Source: Methylocella sp. (GTDB taxonomy: Bacteria > Pseudomonadota > Alphaproteobacteria > Rhizobiales > Beijerinckiaceae). From it: a DNA stretch of 64,000 nucleotides. Below, piece after piece: positions 16,341 through 26,704 of this stretch. How positions within the stretch are numbered: position 1 is the stretch's first letter; each line of letters starts with the position of its first letter. A model generated the notes under the pieces. It worked only from the letters and a program-made list of their open reading frames with translations, was not told where the DNA came from and did no database searches. The translations under genes and the position numbers were made by a program. The DNA lies in assembly GCA_037200525.1 (NCBI GenBank), contig JBBCGG010000001.1, positions 4,580,501 through 4,644,500 of the forward strand, written 5' to 3'.

Positions 16341-16407
16341 TGGTCTGCCCCCTGAAAAGTGATCCTCCGTGAAGTATGGGCTTATGAGCCTGATGGAGGA
16401 CTGCGCA

Positions 16408-16686
16408 ATGCCGAGGAAAAGACAGAAGGCGGAAGAGATCGTCGCGAAGCTACGGCAAGTCGAAGTGCTTAGCGCGCAAGGGCGACCGGTCGCGGAGGCG
16501 ATCCGCTCGATAGGGGTGACGGAAGTTACATACTATCGATGGCGGTCGGAATACGGCGGCCTGAAGGGCGATCAGGTGAAGCGGCTGAAGGAGCTGGAGG
16601 CGGAGAATACGCGGCTCCGTCGAGCGGTGTCCGATTTGACGCTTGAGAAGCTGATCCTGAAAGAGGCTGCCTCGGGAAACTTCTGA
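16408..16686 (+). CDS. IS3 transposase OrfA (helix-turn-helix)
   Basis: A 92-residue protein starting MPRKRQKAEEIVAKLR, with an N-terminal helix-turn-helix (PVAEAIRSIGVTEVTYYRWR) and a leucine-zipper-like C-terminus (KRLKELEAENTRLRRAVSDL). This is the OrfA of IS3/IS407 elements, which binds the IS ends. The ATG at 16408 is chosen because it gives the standard MPRKR-type start; the frame is open a little further upstream. It ends at a TGA where the OrfB frame (-1) is already open, the usual programmed frameshift arrangement. Confidence 0.9.
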   Translation: MPRKRQKAEEIVAKLRQVEVLSAQGRPVAEAIRSIGVTEVTYYRWRSEYGGLKGDQVKRLKELEAENTRLRRAVSDLTLEKLILKEAASGNF

Positions 16687-17576
16687 GCTCCGCGCGTCGT
16701 CGCGCCTGCGTGGAGCATGTGATCGCCGAACATGGCGTTTCCGAGCGGTTCGCTTGCCGGGTTCTCGGTCAGCATCGCTCCACGCAGCGCAAGGTTCCGA
16801 CCAAGCCCGATGACGAAGCGGCATTGATCGCCGACATCACGGCGCTCGCCATCCAGTACGGCCGCTATGGCTACCGCCGCATCACGGCGATGTTGTGGGA
16901 GCGAGGCTGGAAGGTCAACGTCAAACGGGTCGAGCGGATCTGGCGACGCGAGGGGCTGAAAGTTCCGGCCAGACAACCCAAGCGCGGGCGTCTCTGGCTC
17001 AATGACGGCTCGTGCGTCCGGCTGCGCCCGCAATGCCCCAACCACGTCTGGTCCTATGACTTCGTCGAGGACCGCACTCATGATGGCAGGAAATATCGCA
17101 TGCTGAATATCATCGACGAATTTACCCGCGAATGCATCGCGATCAGGATTAACCGGAAGCTGAAGGCAGCGGACGTCATCGACGTTCTCTCGGACCTCTT
17201 CATCTTGCGAGGGGTTCCGATCCACATTCGTTCCGACAACGGCCCGGAGTTCATCGCCAAGGCGTTGCGTGACTGGATTGCCGCCGTCGGCGCGAAGACC
17301 GCCTACATCATGCCGGGCAGTCCCTGGGAGAACGGCTATTGCGAGAGCTTCAACTCGAAGCTGCGCGACGAGCTTTTGAATGGTGAAATCTTCTACACTC
17401 TCAAGGAGGCGAAGGTCGTCATTGAGCGATGGCGACGCCACTACAACACCGTGCGCCCGCACTCATCGCTGGGCTACAAGCCGCCAGCCCCGGAGACCCT
17501 GCAATGGCCGGCTTCGCAATCCGGACCAGCTTCGCCCGCCACGCCAGCAATAGCGCCAGGGCCGACAATGCACTAA
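16680..17576 (+). CDS. IS3 transposase OrfB (DDE integrase domain), expressed by -1 frameshift
   Basis: The OrfB frame is open before its first ATG (16710) and overlaps the OrfA end, reading LLSSARRRACVEHV, as in OrfAB fusion transposases of the IS407 group. It contains an HTH_21-like segment (YGYRRITAMLWERGW) and the rve integrase core with DDE residues in HVWSYDFVEDRT, IRSDNGPEF and WENGYCESFNSKLRDE. The protein looks full length (about 290 residues in the OrfB part), so the element may still be active. It is made as a fusion with OrfA by ribosomal slippage; the coordinates given start at the overlap. Confidence 0.88.
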   Translation, partial: LLSSARRRACVEHVIAEHGVSERFACRVLGQHRSTQRKVPTKPDDEAALIADITALAIQYGRYGYRRITAMLWERGWKVNVKRVERIWRREGLKVPARQPKRGRLWLNDGSCVRLRPQCPNHVWSYDFVEDRTHDGRKYRMLNIIDEFTRECIAIRINRKLKAADVIDVLSDLFILRGVPIHIRSDNGPEFIAKALRDWIAAVGAKTAYIMPGSPWENGYCESFNSKLRDELLNGEIFYTLKEAKVVIERWRRHYNTVRPHSSLGYKPPAPETLQWPASQSGPASPATPAIAPGPTMH

Positions 17577-18768: not shown

Positions 18769-19604
18769 GGCCCAGACCCATAAAATGGTTGGCGTGACAG
18801 GCGGATTGTGATTCACAGCTTCCGAAAGGAAGCGACTATGAATCGGGATCAATTCTGGCTGACGGACGCGCAGTTCGCGAAGATCGCGCCGCATCTTCCC
18901 ACGGACACGCGCGGCAAGGCGGGCGTCGATGATCGCCGGGTGGTCAGCGGGATCATTCATGTGCTGAAATCTGGCGGACGCTGGATTGACGCGCCGCTGG
19001 AGTACGGGCCAAAGAAGACTCTCTACAATCGCTACGTTCGCTGGGCTGCTAAGGGCGTTTGGATCGATCTGTTCCACGCGCTTGCGCAAGCAGGCGGGCC
19101 GCCGGCGCAGGTCCTCATCGACTCCTCGGCGGTCAAGGCGCATCGCTCGGCCAGTGGCGGCAAAGGGGGGAGAAGAATCAGGCCATCGGCCGTTCGCGCG
19201 GCGGGCGCACAACCAAAATCCACGCATTGACCGATGCGGACTGCCGCCCGCTGTCTTTCATGCTCACCGGCGGCCAAATCGCCGATTGCTCGGCGGGCGC
19301 GGAGCTTATCGCGCGACTTCCTCCTTGCGAAATCCTCCATGGCGACAAGGGCTACGACGCAAATGCGATCCGTCGGCAGGTCGAGGAGCGCGGAGCTATG
19401 CCGAATATCCCGCCCAAGGCCAATCGCAGGTGGAAGAACTGCTTCTCGCCCTTCCTCTATCGAAACCGCAACGCCATCGAACGCATGTTCTGCCGCCTGA
19501 AAGACTTCAGGCGCGTGGCTACCCGCTACGACCGAAACGCCATAAACTTCCTCGCGACAGTCTGCATCGCCGCTACCGTCAGCTACTGGTTGTGAGTCTG
19601 GACC
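18769..19604 (+). mobile_element. IS5-family element (IS427-like) with CTAG target duplication
   Basis: An 836-base element. Inverted repeats: left GGCCCAGACCCATAA from 18769, right (reverse complement from 19604) GGTCCAGACTCACAA. The target duplication CTAG is at 18765-18768 and 19605-19608. Precise removal restores an open reading frame in the flanking gene, which confirms the boundaries and suggests a fairly recent insertion. Confidence 0.93.
18838..19595 (+). CDS. IS5/IS427-type transposase in two frames
   Basis: The first frame (ATG 18838 to 19230) gives MNRDQFWLTDAQFAKIAPHL, with the first catalytic Asp in VLIDSSAVKAHR. The second (-1) frame, open to 19595, carries the rest (GRTTKIHALTDADCRPLSFM, then GDKGYDANAIR with the second Asp and NAIERMFCRLKDFRRVATRY with the Glu). 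The switch lies at the slippery CAAAGGGGGG at 19161-19170, typical for IS427-group programmed frameshifting. The complete protein of about 250 residues has all DDE residues, so it may be active. Confidence 0.88.
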
Positions 19605-20344: not shown

Positions 20345-20839
20345 TCAATTGCCTTTTATCTCCAGCGCCGCATGCGTCAGATCCTGCTTCAGCAGGTAGA
20401 ACGAAGCGGCGAGGAAAAGGATATCCTTCACCAGGAAGGCCACCAGCAGATTCATGGCTGGAAAGCCGCCCGCCTCTGCCGCCCACGCATTGGGAAGGAA
20501 CGGAATGATGGTGACTGTGCCGAGAAAGGTGACGCTCGAGCCGAGCGCCCCCAGGATTCCGAGCCTACGGTTCCAGAAGCCCAGGAAGATTAGCGTACCA
20601 AATAGCCATTCCGTAGCGCCGAGGAAAAAACCGGCGCCGCGAACGCCGAAGGCCGGGATCAGCCAGAAAACCAGCGGGCTGTGGCTGATGAACGGGGTGA
20701 TCTGATGCGCTTCAAAGCTAAACCACTTCTGATAGCCGAATATAAGAAATGAAAAAACCATCGCGGCGCGAATAATGCGATAGTCCAGATCGCTCTTGAA
20801 CAGGCCAAGCTTGGACAAATAAAAAATAAGCGAGTTCAA
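20345..20839 (-). CDS. DUF417 (YkgB/RclC-like) inner-membrane protein
   Basis: A 164-residue protein with four hydrophobic segments (about residues 25-42, 57-100, 102-118 and 130-152). The core FLIFGYQKWFSFEAHQITPF, followed by ISHSPLVFW, and the later GATEWLFGTLIFLG segment are typical of DUF417. The start is a TTG at 20839 with an excellent AAGGAG ribosome-binding site seven bases upstream; no ATG fits as well. E. coli RclC of this family belongs to the reactive-chlorine response, and other members accompany electrophile or oxidative stress genes. It lies 20 bases downstream of a twin-arginine mini-protein gene and upstream of the IS-split secreted protein gene. A second DUF417 copy is at 24178. 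Confidence 0.83.
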   Translation of the reverse strand: MNSLIFYLSKLGLFKSDLDYRIIRAAMVFSFLIFGYQKWFSFEAHQITPFISHSPLVFWLIPAFGVRGAGFFLGATEWLFGTLIFLGFWNRRLGILGALGSSVTFLGTVTIIPFLPNAWAAEAGGFPAMNLLVAFLVKDILFLAASFYLLKQDLTHAALEIKGN

Positions 20840-20859
20840 GATGTTTCTCCTTCTCGTTC

Positions 20860-21021
20860 CTACGCGCCGCCGTCGAATAGTCGCCGCAGCGAGGCCGGAC
20901 AAGTCGGCGCCCGCTCCAGATCTTCGTCATGGATTGCAGCAACTGCCGCATTCACCGCTCCAGCCGCTGCGCCGCCCACGAGAAAGGATCGGCGGCCAAC
21001 TCTGAAAGTTTCTTCGCTCAC
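20860..21021 (-). CDS. 53-residue twin-arginine signal mini-protein
   Basis: A small GTG-initiated frame reads VSEETFRVGRRSFLVGGAAA, then GAVNAAVAAIHDE and a polar tail ending LRRLFDGGA. The GRRSFLVGG sequence followed by a small hydrophobic stretch is a good twin-arginine (Tat) signal. A GAAGG-type ribosome-binding site precedes the GTG, and an in-frame TAG lies just upstream, fixing the start. The stop is 20 bases before the DUF417 gene, so the two look co-transcribed. It may be a short Tat-exported protein, or the remaining N-terminus of a Tat-exported enzyme whose body was lost. No homolog is recognised. Confidence 0.55.
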   Translation of the reverse strand: MSEETFRVGRRSFLVGGAAAGAVNAAVAAIHDEDLERAPTCPASLRRLFDGGA

Positions 21022-21358
21022 GCCCTACCTTCGCAAGCAGGCGCTCAAGAGATCATCCTACTGGACTTTCAGCCATAGCAACCAAGTCTTGCCGCCATCC
21101 ATCCGCGACAGGAGCGATTTGGTACTCGCCCCCGGAACTGGCCACAAGAAGGCACTTTTCTCTCAATTACTTACTATTTGATAAGTATGAGGCTACGTTC
21201 CTTTGTAGTAAGGCTCTCGCTGCAAAGCTGCATGCTGTCGTCGGACGCCTCGAGACGGGCGGCCACGTCAGTATCCGCGTCCCGCCGATGCGTATAGACA
21301 CGACATCGCAAGTGAATTTAACAGACTTCAGTTGTTTTATCTCTGCAGCAGCGACTCC
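21022..21358. other. divergent promoter region between the DUF417 operon and the small secreted gene array
   Basis: No gene is supported. The palindrome at 21168-21187 lies here. Bases around 21240-21300 contain a degenerate stretch (CAGTATCCGC...CCGATGCG) that resembles 22760-22795, where the same position upstream of the fourth array gene reads as the end of a short frame (ACRDAIRQYPHLSDADI then stop). The two stretches appear to be copies of one decayed ancestral sequence. Confidence 0.4.
21168..21187. promoter_or_regulatory. palindrome upstream of the Tat/DUF417 operon, candidate operator
   Basis: TACTTACTATTTGATAAGTA has perfect six-base arms (TACTTA/TAAGTA) around an eight-base AT-rich centre. 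It is 146 bases upstream of the GTG of the minus-strand operon and 333 bases upstream of the first small secreted gene on the other strand. Its shape resembles sites of HxlR-type electrophile/quinone sensors (TTAC-type half sites). That assignment is inference, and no HxlR gene is present in the window. Confidence 0.4.
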
Positions 21359-21519
21359 GCATTGCAGCGATATGCGCTTACCTCCTAGTCAGTTACTGAC
21401 TATATTGTAAGCAAAGAGCCTAAATATTTCTCACAAATTTGGAACCGAGTTGTGACAGGCGCCGTTTACTAGCTGAACGCGCGCTTTACAGGCCGCCGAC
21501 ATTTTCGGGAGTTGAAACT
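21359..21519 (+). repeat. duplicated promoter segment, copy 1
   Basis: This segment before the first small secreted gene is related to 22836-22993 before the fourth. Both begin with GCATTGCAGCGATATGC, carry an inverted repeat with a TAGT...ACTA core, then ATTGTAAG, CCTAAATA and a GGGAGTT ribosome-binding region just before the ATG. Conservation across about 160 bases indicates that the gene was duplicated with its control region. Confidence 0.7.
21386..21402. promoter_or_regulatory. perfect palindrome upstream of small secreted protein 1
   Basis: TAGTCAGTTACTGACTA has perfect seven-base arms (TAGTCAG/CTGACTA) around TTA, 117 bases before the ATG. The equivalent spot before the fourth paralog (22861-22881) keeps the outer arms (TTTAGT/ACTAAA). 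Position and conservation suggest an operator or activator site. Confidence 0.5.
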
Positions 21520-21765
21520 ATGAACATCTTCAAGCTATTAGCCGTCACCGCGATCGTTGCAGGCTCCACGGGTTTTGTTGAGGCGAAGCAGGCTCGCTCG
21601 CATTTTTATGATCGGCAGCCTGCACAAGAAGAAGGCATCACCACGGGCCGCTCTGTCGGCGTCGAGACTCAGAATCTACCGCCTGTCGGAGTCCAGCAGT
21701 TGCCCCCAGCGCGCGGATCGTTTGAACCGCTGCCGCCAGCGCGTGGTCCCTACGAGGTCTATTGA
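21520..21765 (+). CDS. small secreted protein, array paralog 1
   Basis: An 81-residue protein: signal peptide MNIFKLLAVTAIVAGSTG with predicted cleavage after VEA, then KQARSHFYDRQPAQEEG, a central RSVGVETQ, and a C-terminus with two copies of a PPARG motif (QQLPPARGSFEPLPPARGPYEVY). The ATG at 21520 follows GGGAGTTGAAACT. Three further paralogs follow on the same strand. The mature part is only about 60 residues, polar, with no cysteine and no known domain. The family is unknown to me. The conserved C-terminal ARGPFEIY-type tail could be a recognition or processing signal; that is speculation. Confidence 0.72.
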   Translation: MNIFKLLAVTAIVAGSTGFVEAKQARSHFYDRQPAQEEGITTGRSVGVETQNLPPVGVQQLPPARGSFEPLPPARGPYEVY

Positions 21766-21794
21766 TATCGCGACAAGCTGCTAAGCGGCGATTT

Positions 21795-21827
21795 AAGGGG
21801 CGGAAAAAGCAATCCCGCCTCTTCCTT
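21795..21827 (+). terminator. stem-loop after paralog 1
   Basis: GGGGCGG (about 21797-21803) can pair with CCGCCTC (about 21815-21821). It is followed by CTTCCTTTGG rather than a T run. Equivalent stem-loops follow paralogs 3 and 4, so it is probably a transcript 3' end or stability element. Confidence 0.45.
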
Positions 21828-21902
21828 TGGCGAAACCGTTCATCACACGACAGATCGACGCAGCGATCACTCCAGGCCATCTGACATTAAGGAGTTAAAA
21901 TC

Positions 21903-22118
21903 ATGAACATCTTCAAGCTGTCGTTTGCCGCCGCCATCGTTGCCGGCTCCGCAAATTTCGCAGAAGCAAAGCAGGCGAGCTTATATTCATACGATCAGCA
22001 GTATGCGCAGGAAGAAAGCATTGTTTTGAGCCGCTCGGTCGGCGGCGGGATTCAGAATACATCGCATAGCGCAGTCGAGCGGCTGCGCCCGGCGCGCGGC
22101 CCCTTCGAGATCTATTGA
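21903..22118 (+). CDS. small secreted protein, array paralog 2
   Basis: A 71-residue paralog: signal peptide MNIFKLSFAAAIVAGSANF, cleavage after AEA, then KQASLYSYDQQYAQEES, a central SRSVGGGIQN, and the tail RPARGPFEIY. The ATG at 21903 has an AGGAG ribosome-binding site. It lies 137 bases after paralog 1, so it may be on the same transcript or have its own promoter. No cysteines and no known domain. The strong conservation of EAKQA, AQEE, RSVG and ARGPFEIY between copies shows selection on both ends of the mature peptide. Confidence 0.72.
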   Translation: MNIFKLSFAAAIVAGSANFAEAKQASLYSYDQQYAQEESIVLSRSVGGGIQNTSHSAVERLRPARGPFEIY

Positions 22119-22276
22119 GATCGCGACAACTATTCGACGACTGCCACGCAGCAACGCTTCTGCTGACGCCCTTTAGGGCCAAATTTTCCTCAACGCCGGA
22201 CGTCAGCGCCAACCGTGACTTCAAACCACGGATGCCGATGGCCGCGCAAATTACAAATTCGATCGGAGTTTTAGCC

Positions 22277-22498
22277 ATGAAAATCGTCACATTGTCATTC
22301 GCGGCGGCAGTCACCGTCACATCCTTCGGAATTGCCGAAGCCAACCAGCTTCGGCCCGATCATTCAGCCGCAGGCGCCTGGGCGCAGGGTAATGTTGGTG
22401 GGGGGCGTTCGGTCGGCGTTATTGGGCAGGGAAGTCTATACGACATGGACCGGCCTCGCTCTTTTGGCCCGGCGCGCGGCCCCTTCGAGATCTATTAA
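22277..22498 (+). CDS. small secreted protein, array paralog 3
   Basis: A 73-residue paralog from the ATG at 22277 (the frame is open upstream, but only this start gives a signal peptide). The signal MKIVTLSFAAAVTVTSFGI ends in AEA, followed by NQLRPDHSAAGAWAQGN, GGGRSVGV and the tail GPARGPFEIY. It is the most divergent in the N-terminal mature half but keeps RSVG and the tail exactly. A stem-loop follows at 22533-22557. Function unknown. Confidence 0.7.
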   Translation: MKIVTLSFAAAVTVTSFGIAEANQLRPDHSAAGAWAQGNVGGGRSVGVIGQGSLYDMDRPRSFGPARGPFEIY

Positions 22499-22532
22499 GT
22501 CTCGAAAGCGCTGACTGCAATTACCGAATTGG

Positions 22533-22557
22533 AGGGGCGGGAGCGATTCCGTCCCTT
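22533..22557 (+). terminator. stem-loop after paralog 3
   Basis: AGGGGCGGGA pairs imperfectly with TTCCGTCCCT around the loop GCGA; nearly the same stem-loop is found at 23305-23336 after paralog 4. It has no long T run, so it could be a weak terminator or a 3'-end stabiliser. Confidence 0.5.
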
Positions 22558-22835
22558 TCGCATGCGACCATGGCGGAAGCGGGTCTCCCCCGCGGCGGTC
22601 TGCTCCGCCATGGCAAGGCGAAGGCTCTAGCCGACAGGGTGCTTCGAACGGTCGAAGACGGGCAGATACCCCAGCCGGGAAGACGGCTTTTCGGTCAGTT
22701 CTGCGGATTCGCCTCGATGTCGCCGGACGCATCGAGGCGTGCCGCGACGCCATCCGGCAGTATCCGCATCTCTCCGATGCGGATATATAGAACCTCGCGA
22801 GTGCATTAAACAAATTTCCCTACAACTGCGGCTCT
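22558..22835. other. decayed spacer between array paralogs 3 and 4
   Basis: A perfect ten-base inverted repeat CCATGGCGGA/TCCGCCATGG lies at 22568-22577 and 22604-22613. Downstream, a plus-strand frame ending at about 22791 reads FRSVLRIRLDVAGRIEACRD, then AIRQYPHLSDADI and stop. This resembles the end of a small antitoxin-like (DUF433-type) or other helical protein, but it has no credible start. A related scrap is seen upstream of paralog 1. I treat it as a gene remnant carried along with the duplication. Confidence 0.35.
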
Positions 22836-22993
22836 GCATTGCAGCGATATGCTCTTACCATTTAGTACGTTAATGACTAAATTGTAAGTAAATAACCTAA
22901 ATAGTTCTAAAAATTTTGGAACTTAGTAGTATATATCGCAGTTTATTGGCCGAACTGGCGATCCAATACTCGTCATTTTTGGGAGTTAAAACT
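22836..22993 (+). repeat. duplicated promoter segment, copy 2
   Basis: Counterpart of 21359-21519. It begins with GCATTGCAGCGATATGC at 22836-22852 and contains the imperfect palindrome TTTAGT...ACTAAA at 22861-22881, then ATTGTAAGTAAATAACC and GGGAGTTAAAACT before the ATG of paralog 4. The shared elements mark it as a promoter copy. Confidence 0.7.
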
Positions 22994-23209
22994 ATGAACG
23001 TCCTCAGGCTGTTAATCGTCGCCACGATTGTCGCAGGCTCCACGGGTTTTGCTGAGGCGAAACAGGCTCGTTCGCATTTTTATGATCAGCGGCCTGCGCA
23101 AGAAGAAGGCCTCACCACAGGCCGCTCGGTCGGCGGCGAGAGTCCAGCTTCCAGCGAGAACGACTGGTTCACCACCATCATCCAGGAAAACCAGGGATAT
23201 TCGAAGTGA
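22994..23209 (+). CDS. small secreted protein, array paralog 4 with altered C-terminus
   Basis: A 71-residue paralog most like copy 1: signal MNVLRLLIVATIVAGSTG, cleavage after AEA, then KQARSHFYDQRPAQEEG and TTGRSVGG. After this the sequence departs: ESPASSENDWFTTIIQENQG replaces the PARGPFEIY tail. The loss of the otherwise invariant tail in the copy with the best conserved N-terminus suggests either new specificity or decay. The ATG follows GGGAGTTAAAACT. A strong stem-loop follows at 23305. Confidence 0.7.
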   Translation: MNVLRLLIVATIVAGSTGFAEAKQARSHFYDQRPAQEEGLTTGRSVGGESPASSENDWFTTIIQENQGYSK

Positions 23210-24177: not shown

Positions 24178-24660
24178 ATGTCGGTATATTTCAAGATTGC
24201 GGAACGTGGCGCTGGGTCCTATCGGATGCTGGCGATTTTGCGCTGGGTCATGGTCTTGACCTTCCTATCCTTTGGCGTCCAAAAGTTTACGCCGCAGTCA
24301 GCCGAAGGCATTGTGCAATACATTAGCAACAGCCCTTTTGTTTGGTGGCTCTCCATCTTCGGCGTGAGAGGCGAAGCCTACCTCCTCGGCGTTGTCGAAC
24401 TTAGCACGGCTGTTCTGTTCGCGGCAGGCGCGTTCAGCCCGTTGATATCGGCGCTTGGGTCGCTCATGGGCGTAGCGACATTCCTTATTACCTGGTCGTT
24501 CTTCTTCACAACGCCTGGCGTCGTGCATTGGAGTCTCTCGACCGATCCGATCGCGTGGAATTTGACGGGCGAATTCCTGTTCAAGGACATCGTGCTGCTC
24601 AGCGTCTGCCTCGTGCTGTTCTTGGCTTCGCTGTCTCGGAATGTCCAACAAAAGTCATGA
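24178..24660 (+). CDS. second DUF417 (YkgB/RclC-like) inner-membrane protein
   Basis: A 160-residue DUF417 protein. ATG at 24178 follows a GGGAGA ribosome-binding site; the upstream open frame is basic and unlike the family. Membrane segments lie near residues 18-35, 50-93, 96-115 and 126-150. Family-typical motifs: FLSFGVQKFTPQSAEGIVQY, ISNSPFVWWLSIFGVRGEAY and the C-terminal GEFLFKDIVLLSVCLVLFLA. It is a diverged paralog of the copy at 20345; the two flank the secreted-protein array in opposite orientations. Expected to be an envelope stress-related membrane protein; mechanism unknown. Confidence 0.82.
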   Translation: MSVYFKIAERGAGSYRMLAILRWVMVLTFLSFGVQKFTPQSAEGIVQYISNSPFVWWLSIFGVRGEAYLLGVVELSTAVLFAAGAFSPLISALGSLMGVATFLITWSFFFTTPGVVHWSLSTDPIAWNLTGEFLFKDIVLLSVCLVLFLASLSRNVQQKS

Positions 24661-24871: not shown

Positions 24872-25702
24872 GCTCAGGACCTATTAAATTTGCCTGAGAT
24901 GTGATTCCTGGTCTCCGCATGGGGAGGCTGGGATGAGTGATTTGTTTTTGTTGGGCGAGCGGCAGATGGCGCGGCTTGCGCCGCATTTTCCTCTGTCGCA
25001 TGGCGTTCCGCGGGTTGACGACCGTCGGGTGGTCAGCGGAATCGTCTATGTGATCCGCAACGGCCTGCAATGGAAAGATGCGCCCAAGGATTACGGGCCG
25101 CACAAGACGCTTTACAATCGCTTCATCCGCTGGAGCCGGCTCGGCGTCTTCGACCGCATATTCGCCGCGCTCGCTGGCGAAGGTCCAAAGCCCGAGCGCA
25201 TCATGATCGACGCCACGCATCTGAAGGCGCATCGCACAGCGGCGAGCCTGCTCAAAAAGGGGCTCTTCCCCGCCGTATCGGGCGCACGAAAGGCGGACTG
25301 AACTCGAAGCTCCACGTCGTTTGCGACGGCGCCGGCAAGCCCCTCGTCATGTTGCTCTCGGAGGGCCAGATGAGCGACCACAAGGGCGCGCGGCTGATGC
25401 TCAAGGCTTTACCGCCCGCTTCAATGTTGATCGCCGACAGGGGCTACGACAGCAACTGGTTCCGCGCCGCGCTGAAGGCCAGGGGCGTCGAGCCCTGCAT
25501 CCCGCCAACCAGAAGCCGCAAGCTTCCCATTGCCTATGACAAGACGCTCTACCGCCAGCGTCACAAAATCGAGAACATGTTCGCCAAGCTCAAGGACTGG
25601 CGGCGCATCGCAACCCGCTATGATCGATGCGCCCACACCTTCTTCTCCGCCATCTGCATCGCAGCCGCCGTCCTCTTCTATCTCAATCAATGAGTCCTGA
25701 GC
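24872..25702 (+). mobile_element. IS5-family element (IS427-like) copy 2 with CTAG duplication
   Basis: An 831-base element. Inverted repeats: GCTCAGGACCTATTAA from 24872 and, reverse complemented from 25702, GCTCAGGACTCATTGA. CTAG target duplications are at 24868-24871 and 25703-25706. It is related to, but clearly a different element from, the copy at 18769 (different ends and a different transposase), yet it uses the same CTAG target. Confidence 0.92.
24933..25693 (+). CDS. IS5/IS427-type transposase, copy 2, in two frames
   Basis: The first frame (24933-25301) starts MSDLFLLGERQMARLAPHFP and includes IMIDATHLKAHR with the first Asp. The second (-1) frame, open to 25693, contains GLNSKLHVVCDGAGKPLVML, ADRGYDSNWFR with the second Asp and HKIENMFAKLKDWRRIATRY with the Glu. 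The change of frame occurs at CTCAAAAAGG (25251-25260), a slippery site. All catalytic residues are present, so the element may be functional. Confidence 0.87.
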
Positions 25703-25815: not shown

Positions 25816-26704
25816 GAGTCCGTTTGACAACTATGGGTGGGTTATCCGGCGGATCAACAAGCCGGCCATAGCGACCTCGATCATGGCGTGAGAGACGTCT
25901 ATCCGGGCCTCGTAGTCTCGGACGAGACGCCTGTGGCGGGTCATCCATCCGAAGGTCCGTTCGACGACCCATCGTCTCGGCAGAATCACGAATGCGGCCT
26001 CGGTACGCCGCACGATCTCGACGGTGAAGTCGAGAAAAGCCGCTTTGTCGAGCAGTCGCTGGCGATCGTAGGCGCTGTCGGCGAACAGGTGTTTGACCCG
26101 CGGCCAGCGTTTTTGGATGGCCTCAAGAACGGCTTGCGCGCCTGTGCTGTCGGCGATATCGGCCGTGGTGAGATTGACCATCAGCAGACGTCCGTCGGCG
26201 TCGACCGCGATATGGCGTTTGCGCCCGACGATCTTCTTGGCGCCGTCGAACCCGCGTGTTCCCTGCGGCGCCGGGGCTTTGACGGACTGGCTGTCGAGCA
26301 CCGCCGCGCTCGGTTCGGCGTTGCGGCCCGTCCGCGCGCGGTCGATCATCAAGGCGACATCGTGAAGGGTGCGAAACATCAGACGCCGGGTCAGGCGGCG
26401 AAACCACCAGTACACCGTCTGCCAGGGCGGGAAGTGAACCGGCAGCATCCGCCACTCACATCCCGACCGCACCAGATACCGGATGGCGTTCAAAACTTCG
26501 CGCAGGTCTGTCCGTCGGGGGCTTCCGGTCGCTCCCGCCTTCGGCAGAAACGGCTCGACCGAAGACCATTCCTCATCAGTCAGGTCGCTCGGATAGCGCT
26601 TCGTCTTCTTCTCAATCTTGGCCATTCGGCCACGGCTCTTGGCTGTCCACATCGAAAGCGTGAATCATAACCAAAGAACCATGTCAAAGTTGTCAAACAG
26701 ACTC
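25816..26704 (-). mobile_element. IS5-family element (IS1031/ISL2-like) with TTA duplication
   Basis: An 889-base element with ends GAGTCCGTTTGACAACT from 25816 and, reverse complemented from 26704, GAGTCTGTTTGACAACT. Target duplication TTA lies at 25813-25815 and 26705-26707. It lies only 110 bases from IS copy 2 and 32 bases before the glycosyltransferase gene, so it may have displaced that gene's native promoter. Confidence 0.92.
25831..26625 (-). CDS. IS5-family transposase (single ORF)
   Basis: A 264-residue DDE transposase starting MAKIEKKTKRYPSDLTDEEW (ATG 26625). It has the DUF4096-type N-terminus (SGCEWRMLPVHFPPWQTVYW) and the catalytic Asp in AVLDSQSVKAP, the Asp in LFADSAYDRQRL and the Glu in WVVERTFGWMTRHRRLVRDY. 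Complete and probably active. It is unlike the two-frame transposases at 18838 and 24933. Confidence 0.92.
   Translation of the reverse strand: MAKIEKKTKRYPSDLTDEEWSSVEPFLPKAGATGSPRRTDLREVLNAIRYLVRSGCEWRMLPVHFPPWQTVYWWFRRLTRRLMFRTLHDVALMIDRARTGRNAEPSAAVLDSQSVKAPAPQGTRGFDGAKKIVGRKRHIAVDADGRLLMVNLTTADIADSTGAQAVLEAIQKRWPRVKHLFADSAYDRQRLLDKAAFLDFTVEIVRRTEAAFVILPRRWVVERTFGWMTRHRRLVRDYEARIDVSHAMIEVAMAGLLIRRITHP

Follow-up and report, generated by a model that had tools for sequence, protein, structure and literature searches.

The stretch of DNA analysed here (the window, 64,000 nucleotides of contig JBBCGG010000001.1 of a Methylocella sp. genome) contains four short genes in tandem on the forward strand, P1 (21520–21765, 81 aa), P2 (21903–22118, 71 aa), P3 (22277–22498, 73 aa) and P4 (22994–23209, 71 aa), each encoding a putative secreted precursor with a signal-like N-terminus. 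The main features that a sequence-only reading had assigned to these proteins are present: the signal-like segment ends in (V/A)EA, followed by KQ in three of the four proteins and by NQ in P3; RSVG is found in all four; and P1–P3 end in a tail of the pattern ARGP[FY]E[IV]Y (ARGPFEIY in P2 and P3, ARGPYEVY in P1). In P1 the tail motif is repeated (PPARGSFEP, PPARGPYEVY), i.e., PPARG occurs twice. P4 retains the signal peptide and GRSVG and lacks the tail. The suggestion that P4 had exchanged its tail for another sequence is not borne out, there being no sign that P4 acquired some other shared tail. The resemblance of P4 to P1 and the remaining copies fades at about codon 49, with the 3′ hairpin retained despite this loss. 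Hairpins follow P1 (21796–21822, plus strand, in DNA common to the prophage copies described below), P3 (22531–22558, plus strand, –18.6 kcal/mol) and P4 (23305–23336, plus strand, nearly the same as that of P3). They lack a clear T run, the first two are not flagged by a terminator scan, and the promoter and terminator scan as a whole does not rise above shuffled sequences.

The four genes belong to a paralogous family, as had been proposed, with nine members at six loci of the host genome (one contig, 5.24 Mb), eight of which carry the tail. The members outside the window are located at genome positions 1691829, 1861907, 2809113, 3066171 and 4575165; the nearest paralog of P2 is the copy at 4575165–4575377 (82% identity) and that of P3 the copy at 2809113–2809349. 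A search of 15 genomes of the genus with a degenerate tail pattern identifies only the eight tailed paralogs of this genome and two more genes, one in each of two other genomes of the genus, referred to below as the M. tundrae-type copies; homologs do exist in relatives, and the reversed pattern, used as a control, has no match in the same 15 genomes. Profile searches of samples of 298 and 397 family genomes confine the convincing members to this genus. In the order-wide profile search, the only one of the 397 sampled genomes that matched is the host genome itself, and the 14 weak loci outside the genus (11 at E 0.002–0.01, plus three) are all tailless, none being judged to share the architecture. 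More distant genes, with a signal peptide and GRS[VIT]G followed by other C-termini, are present in genomes G009, G002 and G014 and as a tandem pair in the host genome. The sequence-only reading knew no named family of this kind, and the window proteins indeed match nothing in Pfam, NCBIfam, PHROGs and PADLOC apart from a sub-threshold hit of P4 to COX16 (E 0.097). A PDB search returns a single match (E 0.72), to a signal segment. The gene was not found in the public phage, viral-contig and plasmid collections searched, and a search started with P2 against a collection of genome contigs yields nothing of use. The tail strings do not occur in the literature searched, nor did we find a publication on small secreted proteins of Methylocella. 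In these searches the family appears restricted to Methylocella. We found no description of it, of its amplification in a phage slot, or of another cargo family that likewise carries GRSVG (see below); prophage cargo genes as a kind are already known.

Conservation is concentrated at the two ends of the proteins and the middle is variable, as had been noticed in the window copies. With segment borders that were picked after the alignment was seen, the mean pairwise identity of the ten tailed proteins is 0.55 in the signal segment, 0.35 in the N-terminal mature segment, 0.76 around GRSVG, 0.26 in the variable part and 0.79 in the tail, and the respective pN/pS values over the 45 pairs are 0.43, 0.60, 0.32, 0.87 and 0.26. 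In all 45 pairs, which are not independent of one another, the tail has a smaller proportion of nonsynonymous differences (pN) than the variable part. A pooled version rested on four chosen pairs, and in the two pairs that include the 1691829 copy, for which the final nine residues of one member served as the tail, tail dN is not clearly below that of the middle (0.181 versus 0.193 and 0.247 versus 0.201); the comparison was therefore extended to all 45 pairs of one alignment.

Nei-Gojobori counts for 13 pairs give dN/dS below 0.5 in ten, i.e., not near 1 for most; two pairs are not below this value (1.11 and 0.50) and one is saturated. Fisher tests were applied to eight pairs and are significant in six (p about 1e-3 or less): P2/4575165 (0.16), P1/3066171 (0.20), P1/1691829 (0.35), 3066171/1691829 (0.22), P3/2809113 (0.36) and, over its first 49 codons, P4/3066171 (0.21). 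P1/P4 (0.48, p 0.1) and the pair of copies of the M. tundrae type (1.11, from eight changes, p 0.69) are non-significant. The ratios calculated without a Fisher test are 0.19 for P4/1691829, 0.45 for P2/3066171, 0.40 for P1/P2 and 0.50 for the distant G014/G002 pair, 1861907/G014 being the saturated one. By segment, dN/dS is 0.77–0.96 for the signal in three pairs and 0.58–0.59 for the mature part in two. Most paralog pairs are therefore under purifying selection, which is strongest in the tail. The notion that these ORFs are unselected remains of decaying phages could draw on the lost tail of P4, the decay of the phage genes beside the array, the ratio of 1.11 in the M. tundrae-type pair and the weak constraint on the variable part (pN/pS 0.87 over the 45 pairs); however, it is very improbable in view of the five full-length pairs at 0.16–0.36 (Fisher p 1e-3 to 1e-6) and of the consistently lower tail pN. 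It is largely refuted for P1–P3 and could hold for P4.

The copy at 1691829–1692071 lies in an HK97-type prophage of the same genome, antisense to the head genes. The order of genes at this locus is head maturation protease, major capsid protein, a phrog_5707 gene (for which we use the working label deco), the peptide gene, orfY, orfX (a tail-fibre-like ORF) and head-tail adaptor; genes for a primase, a tail protein and an endolysin are located at a greater distance. The phage nature of orfY follows from its detection in 11 of 21 related viral contigs (E up to 0.01). Two decayed prophages, at 3066171 and 4575165, show the same arrangement, in which remains of deco and of orfY lie on opposite sides of the peptide gene; the former locus also retains connector remains. 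The distance from deco to orfX is 740 bp here versus 1483–2166 bp in the four of the 21 viral contigs that have both genes. The slot before orfY holds other genes in the four of these contigs that were read; two such slot ORFs were scanned, and one of them hits a PHROG classified under morons as a glycosyltransferase.

This location resembles that of prophage morons, for which PMC7067206 describes antisense placement as characteristic. The peptide gene is enclosed by conserved phage genes within a prophage, its slot varies among related phages, and its orientation is antisense. The base composition, in contrast, is not unlike that of the phage: the G+C content of the prophage copy is 0.614 (0.569 in its upstream part), not distinct from the 0.61–0.66 of the phage genes measured. 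With the morons of PMC7067206 and PMC6469090 the gene shares the orientation antisense to the lytic genes, the variable prophage slot, the lack of a recognised role in the phage life cycle and a product that probably acts on the host. Unlike those morons, the present family is in none of the libraries searched, has copies outside prophages and reaches nine members in one genome. Two other kinds of element were considered for these loci. A gene transfer agent was rejected, the element having primase and endolysin genes and, at the tape-measure position, an ORF of 1036 aa without a PHROG match. Spread of the IS or MITE type was rejected as well, the DNA common to the array and the three outside copies being phage DNA.

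The array in the window is flanked by remains of the same phage genes. Phage-slot DNA aligns to window positions 21238–21828 with 71% identity over 609 columns. Upstream of P1, two tblastn pieces in two frames of the minus strand (21237–21331, E 0.066 each, 52% and 65% identity) point to a relic of orfY, which is weak when taken alone (E 0.07). The 3′ end of deco is recognisable after P3 (22620–22683, minus strand, 85% over 65 columns, E 1e-11), with alignment scores of 52–75 against maxima of 27–31 in 200 shuffles each. Upstream of P4 there is a decayed orfY with two in-frame stops (22653–22817, minus strand, tblastn 55% over 55 aa, E 3e-10), the final residues of which coincide with part of the deco relic and are possibly spurious. 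The resulting order is orfY relic, P1, P2, P3, deco relic, then orfY relic, P4 and a gene for a Gly-rich protein. Since this is the phage order reversed, two successive relics of the cargo slot are the best reading of the array. The array thus appears to be prophage-derived, an origin that is well supported and that the sequence-only reading had missed, as it had missed the occurrence of GRSVG in another secreted family.

A tree of 13 proteins has a branch (85/96; recovered in 84% of 200 bootstrap trees) that separates P1, P2, P4 and the three prophage copies from the others, with P3 entered as non-phage though it lies inside the array; if P3 is counted as phage-linked, no branch sets the group apart. 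P3 joins the non-phage copy 2809113 (99/100). Being part of the array and yet grouped with a non-phage copy, P3 would have arrived separately or be older. The copies at 1861907 and 2809113 and the two of the M. tundrae type are situated among chromosomal genes (SecD, DsbA-like, DMFA2_C, solute-binding protein), and orfY was not found in the four 20-kb loci around 1861907, 2809113 and the G014 and G002 copies (best E 0.13). At the G014 locus, a PQQ-dehydrogenase-like gene near the peptide gene is apparently split over two frames (L064 12098–14874). A link to methanol oxidation, considered on account of this gene and a solute-binding protein near the same copy, was rejected, with none such seen at the other, partly scanned loci.

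Several of the copies are preceded by sites that resemble promoters of the EcfG type. The site of P1 (21441–21466, plus strand, GGAAC-N17-CGTT) matches all nine letters and lies 79 nt before the ATG; that of P4 (22918–22943, plus strand, GGAAC-N17-AGTT) matches eight of nine, 76 nt before the ATG. At the matching place the 4575165 and 3066171 copies score 8/9 each, the latter with GGTAC, P2 scores 7/9, the copy in the intact prophage 5/9, and the remaining tailed genes (non-phage and M. tundrae-type) 5–6. Among 4000 random stretches of 150 nt, a score of 9 occurs in 0.15%, of at least 8 in 2.3% and of at least 7 in 26%; the four high-scoring regions are homologous and therefore not independent. 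PMC7083833 gives the motif as GGAAC-N16-CGTT, with a nearly invariant AAC in the –35 element and a flexible –10 element, which fits P1, P4 and the 4575165 copy better than the 3066171 copy. All three genomes examined encode NepR, with one occurrence of the exact motif in each 3.1-kb nepR locus. The presence of NepR and of GGAAC-N16/17-NGTT sites (GGTAC in one) before four of the six genes of the phage clade is reminiscent of the EcfG (PhyR-NepR) regulon, whereas in the other copies the site is absent or damaged. Some copies may accordingly be induced by stress through these EcfG-like promoters.

The copies among chromosomal genes and without an orfY relic, together with a promoter type that suggests host stress control of some copies, are what would be expected if these were envelope or stress proteins of the host, unrelated to phage function, whose genes the prophages merely duplicated by recombination. 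This explanation is rather unlikely, considering that at three loci the gene occupies the same phage slot in antisense orientation, and that both cargo slots of one prophage took up secreted genes with GRSVG, a combination suggesting that carriage pays.

The second of these slots, between the protease and capsid genes, spans 947 bp in the intact prophage. In eight of 13 relatives the gap is 94–159 bp and in the other five 326–674 bp, a count over the 21 viral contigs that leaves out five with negative estimates and three without the protease. In the prophage the gap contains two antisense ORFs for putative secreted proteins, each with EGRSVG. A profile of this Gly-rich family identifies five genes in the host genome but none in 396 further genomes of the bacterial family. 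The Gly-rich window gene beside P4 (23446–23832, plus strand) and the second of the two prophage ORFs are joined to it by their N-termini only, giving a count of seven: the window gene, L023 6790–7083 and 7199–7513, and genome 3228262, 3212494, 3504510 and 2556541. The window gene, missed by the profile, has EGRSST in place of EGRSVG and is probably a diverged member, with relatives in the protease-capsid slot of the prophage. Exact GRSVG is present in five of the seven members, and a cysteine-containing tail of the type NGNGxxCxPPxxCN (e.g., NGNGTGCxPPxTCNQ) also in five. The two families share the signal peptide, [E/Q]GRSVG some 20–45 residues from the end, and carriage by the same prophage; the Gly-rich proteins differ in their own tail, with its cysteines, and in the Gly-rich body.

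Among the 453 short ORFs with a crude signal peptide in an even 400-kb sample of the genome, GRS[VIAT]G is found in two, the same number as the reversed motif, and one of these two belongs to the Gly-rich family. The motif is therefore rare genome-wide yet recurrent in these families. Two further small secreted ORFs in tandem (1217294–1217518 and 1216962–1217186, L068) contain GRSTG or GRSVG and a common tail, NCxRNxPSVSxNGNPSLSxTxxCR. A speculative and doubtful extension of these observations would regard GRSVG as a common sorting or processing module of Methylocella small secreted proteins, recognised by an unknown shared receptor or protease, and the tails ARGP[FY]xxY, NGNGxxCxPPxxCN and PSVSxNGNPSLS...CR as clade-specific, constrained ligands of a phage-shuffled repertoire, the genes for which temperate phages would repeatedly pick up and amplify.

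The sequence-only reading had proposed a secreted peptide system. The part of this proposal that stands is a family with Sec-type N-termini; a dedicated system does not emerge, no recurrent processing, transporter, export, receptor or immunity gene being seen beside the copies (18 ORFs at five loci were scanned against Pfam and the others assessed by eye). This result bears directly on the possibility of a signalling or antimicrobial peptide, released from its precursor by cleavage at GRSVG or the tail, with a partner that senses or exports it. Such a peptide is compatible with the conserved ends and variable middle and with the occurrence of GRSVG in the Gly-rich family and in further small secreted ORFs, but the neighbourhoods and the lack of cysteines in the ten tailed proteins make it markedly unlikely. 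A RiPP or signalling cluster was set aside on the same partly scanned neighbourhoods, with no recurrent enzyme, transporter or receptor as a neighbour: the short precursors with conserved ends and a variable middle resemble RiPPs and signalling peptides, whereas the Sec-type signal, the absence of cysteines and the absence of a modification or export cluster among the genes seen set the present proteins apart.

A glycosyltransferase is a type of gene able to alter receptors, and the glycosyltransferase-like gene in the slot of a related phage is among the observations that bring to mind a phage-exclusion factor, i.e., a secreted or periplasmic protein that masks a receptor or blocks DNA entry of related phages. 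The position of a small exported protein antisense within the head genes, which PMC7067206 presents as a usual place for such cargo, agrees with this idea; on the other hand, the six proteins scanned with PADLOC gave no match, none of the libraries searched revealed homology to a known exclusion protein, and non-phage copies exist. An exclusion function as such is thus unlikely.

Taken together, these findings are somewhat in favour of a secreted protein, restricted to one lineage and probably disordered, that was taken up as prophage cargo (a moron) and amplified there, with selection keeping the peptide genes of the slot relics and the tail being the likely binding part. The mature proteins are short (about 49–59 aa, assuming cleavage after residue 22), hydrophilic, cysteine-free in the ten tailed members and rich in P, G, S, Q and N, a composition that makes disorder probable. 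Under this scenario, an ancestral copy would have moved from outside into a temperate phage of the HK97 type, taking up the cargo slot antisense between deco and orfY and thereby becoming a moron. Recombination among prophage copies would then have amplified the peptide gene, and the window array would represent two successive slot relics in which selection kept the peptide genes while the phage genes decayed. The lysogen would make the protein, from some copies by way of a promoter of the EcfG (general stress) type, and export it through Sec. The protein would act at the envelope or outside the cell, where GRSVG and above all the C-terminal ARGP[FY]xxY would bind, presumably with the middle as a spacer. 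Carriage by the phage is most economically explained by lysogenic conversion in a broad sense, through stress fitness or phage exclusion; the non-phage copies lend some probability to a purely host role.

If this reconstruction is right, the locus offers an example, readable from decay, of an orphan secreted family that expands as prophage cargo, through duplication within the slot and retention by selection after phage decay. It also brings to light two unnamed small-protein families in methanotrophs with a common motif, one of them with a nearly invariant tail, so that the partner of the tail should be directly searchable by pull-down.

Genes of other kinds surround the array. Two DUF417 membrane proteins flank it (window 20345–20902 on the minus strand and 24178–24660 on the plus strand), and transposase-like ORFs, named by eye, are found at 16369–17576, 18808–19595, 24933–25693 and 25831–26652. 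The window also contains two elements of 839–844 bp, near-identical copies of which are present elsewhere in the genome.
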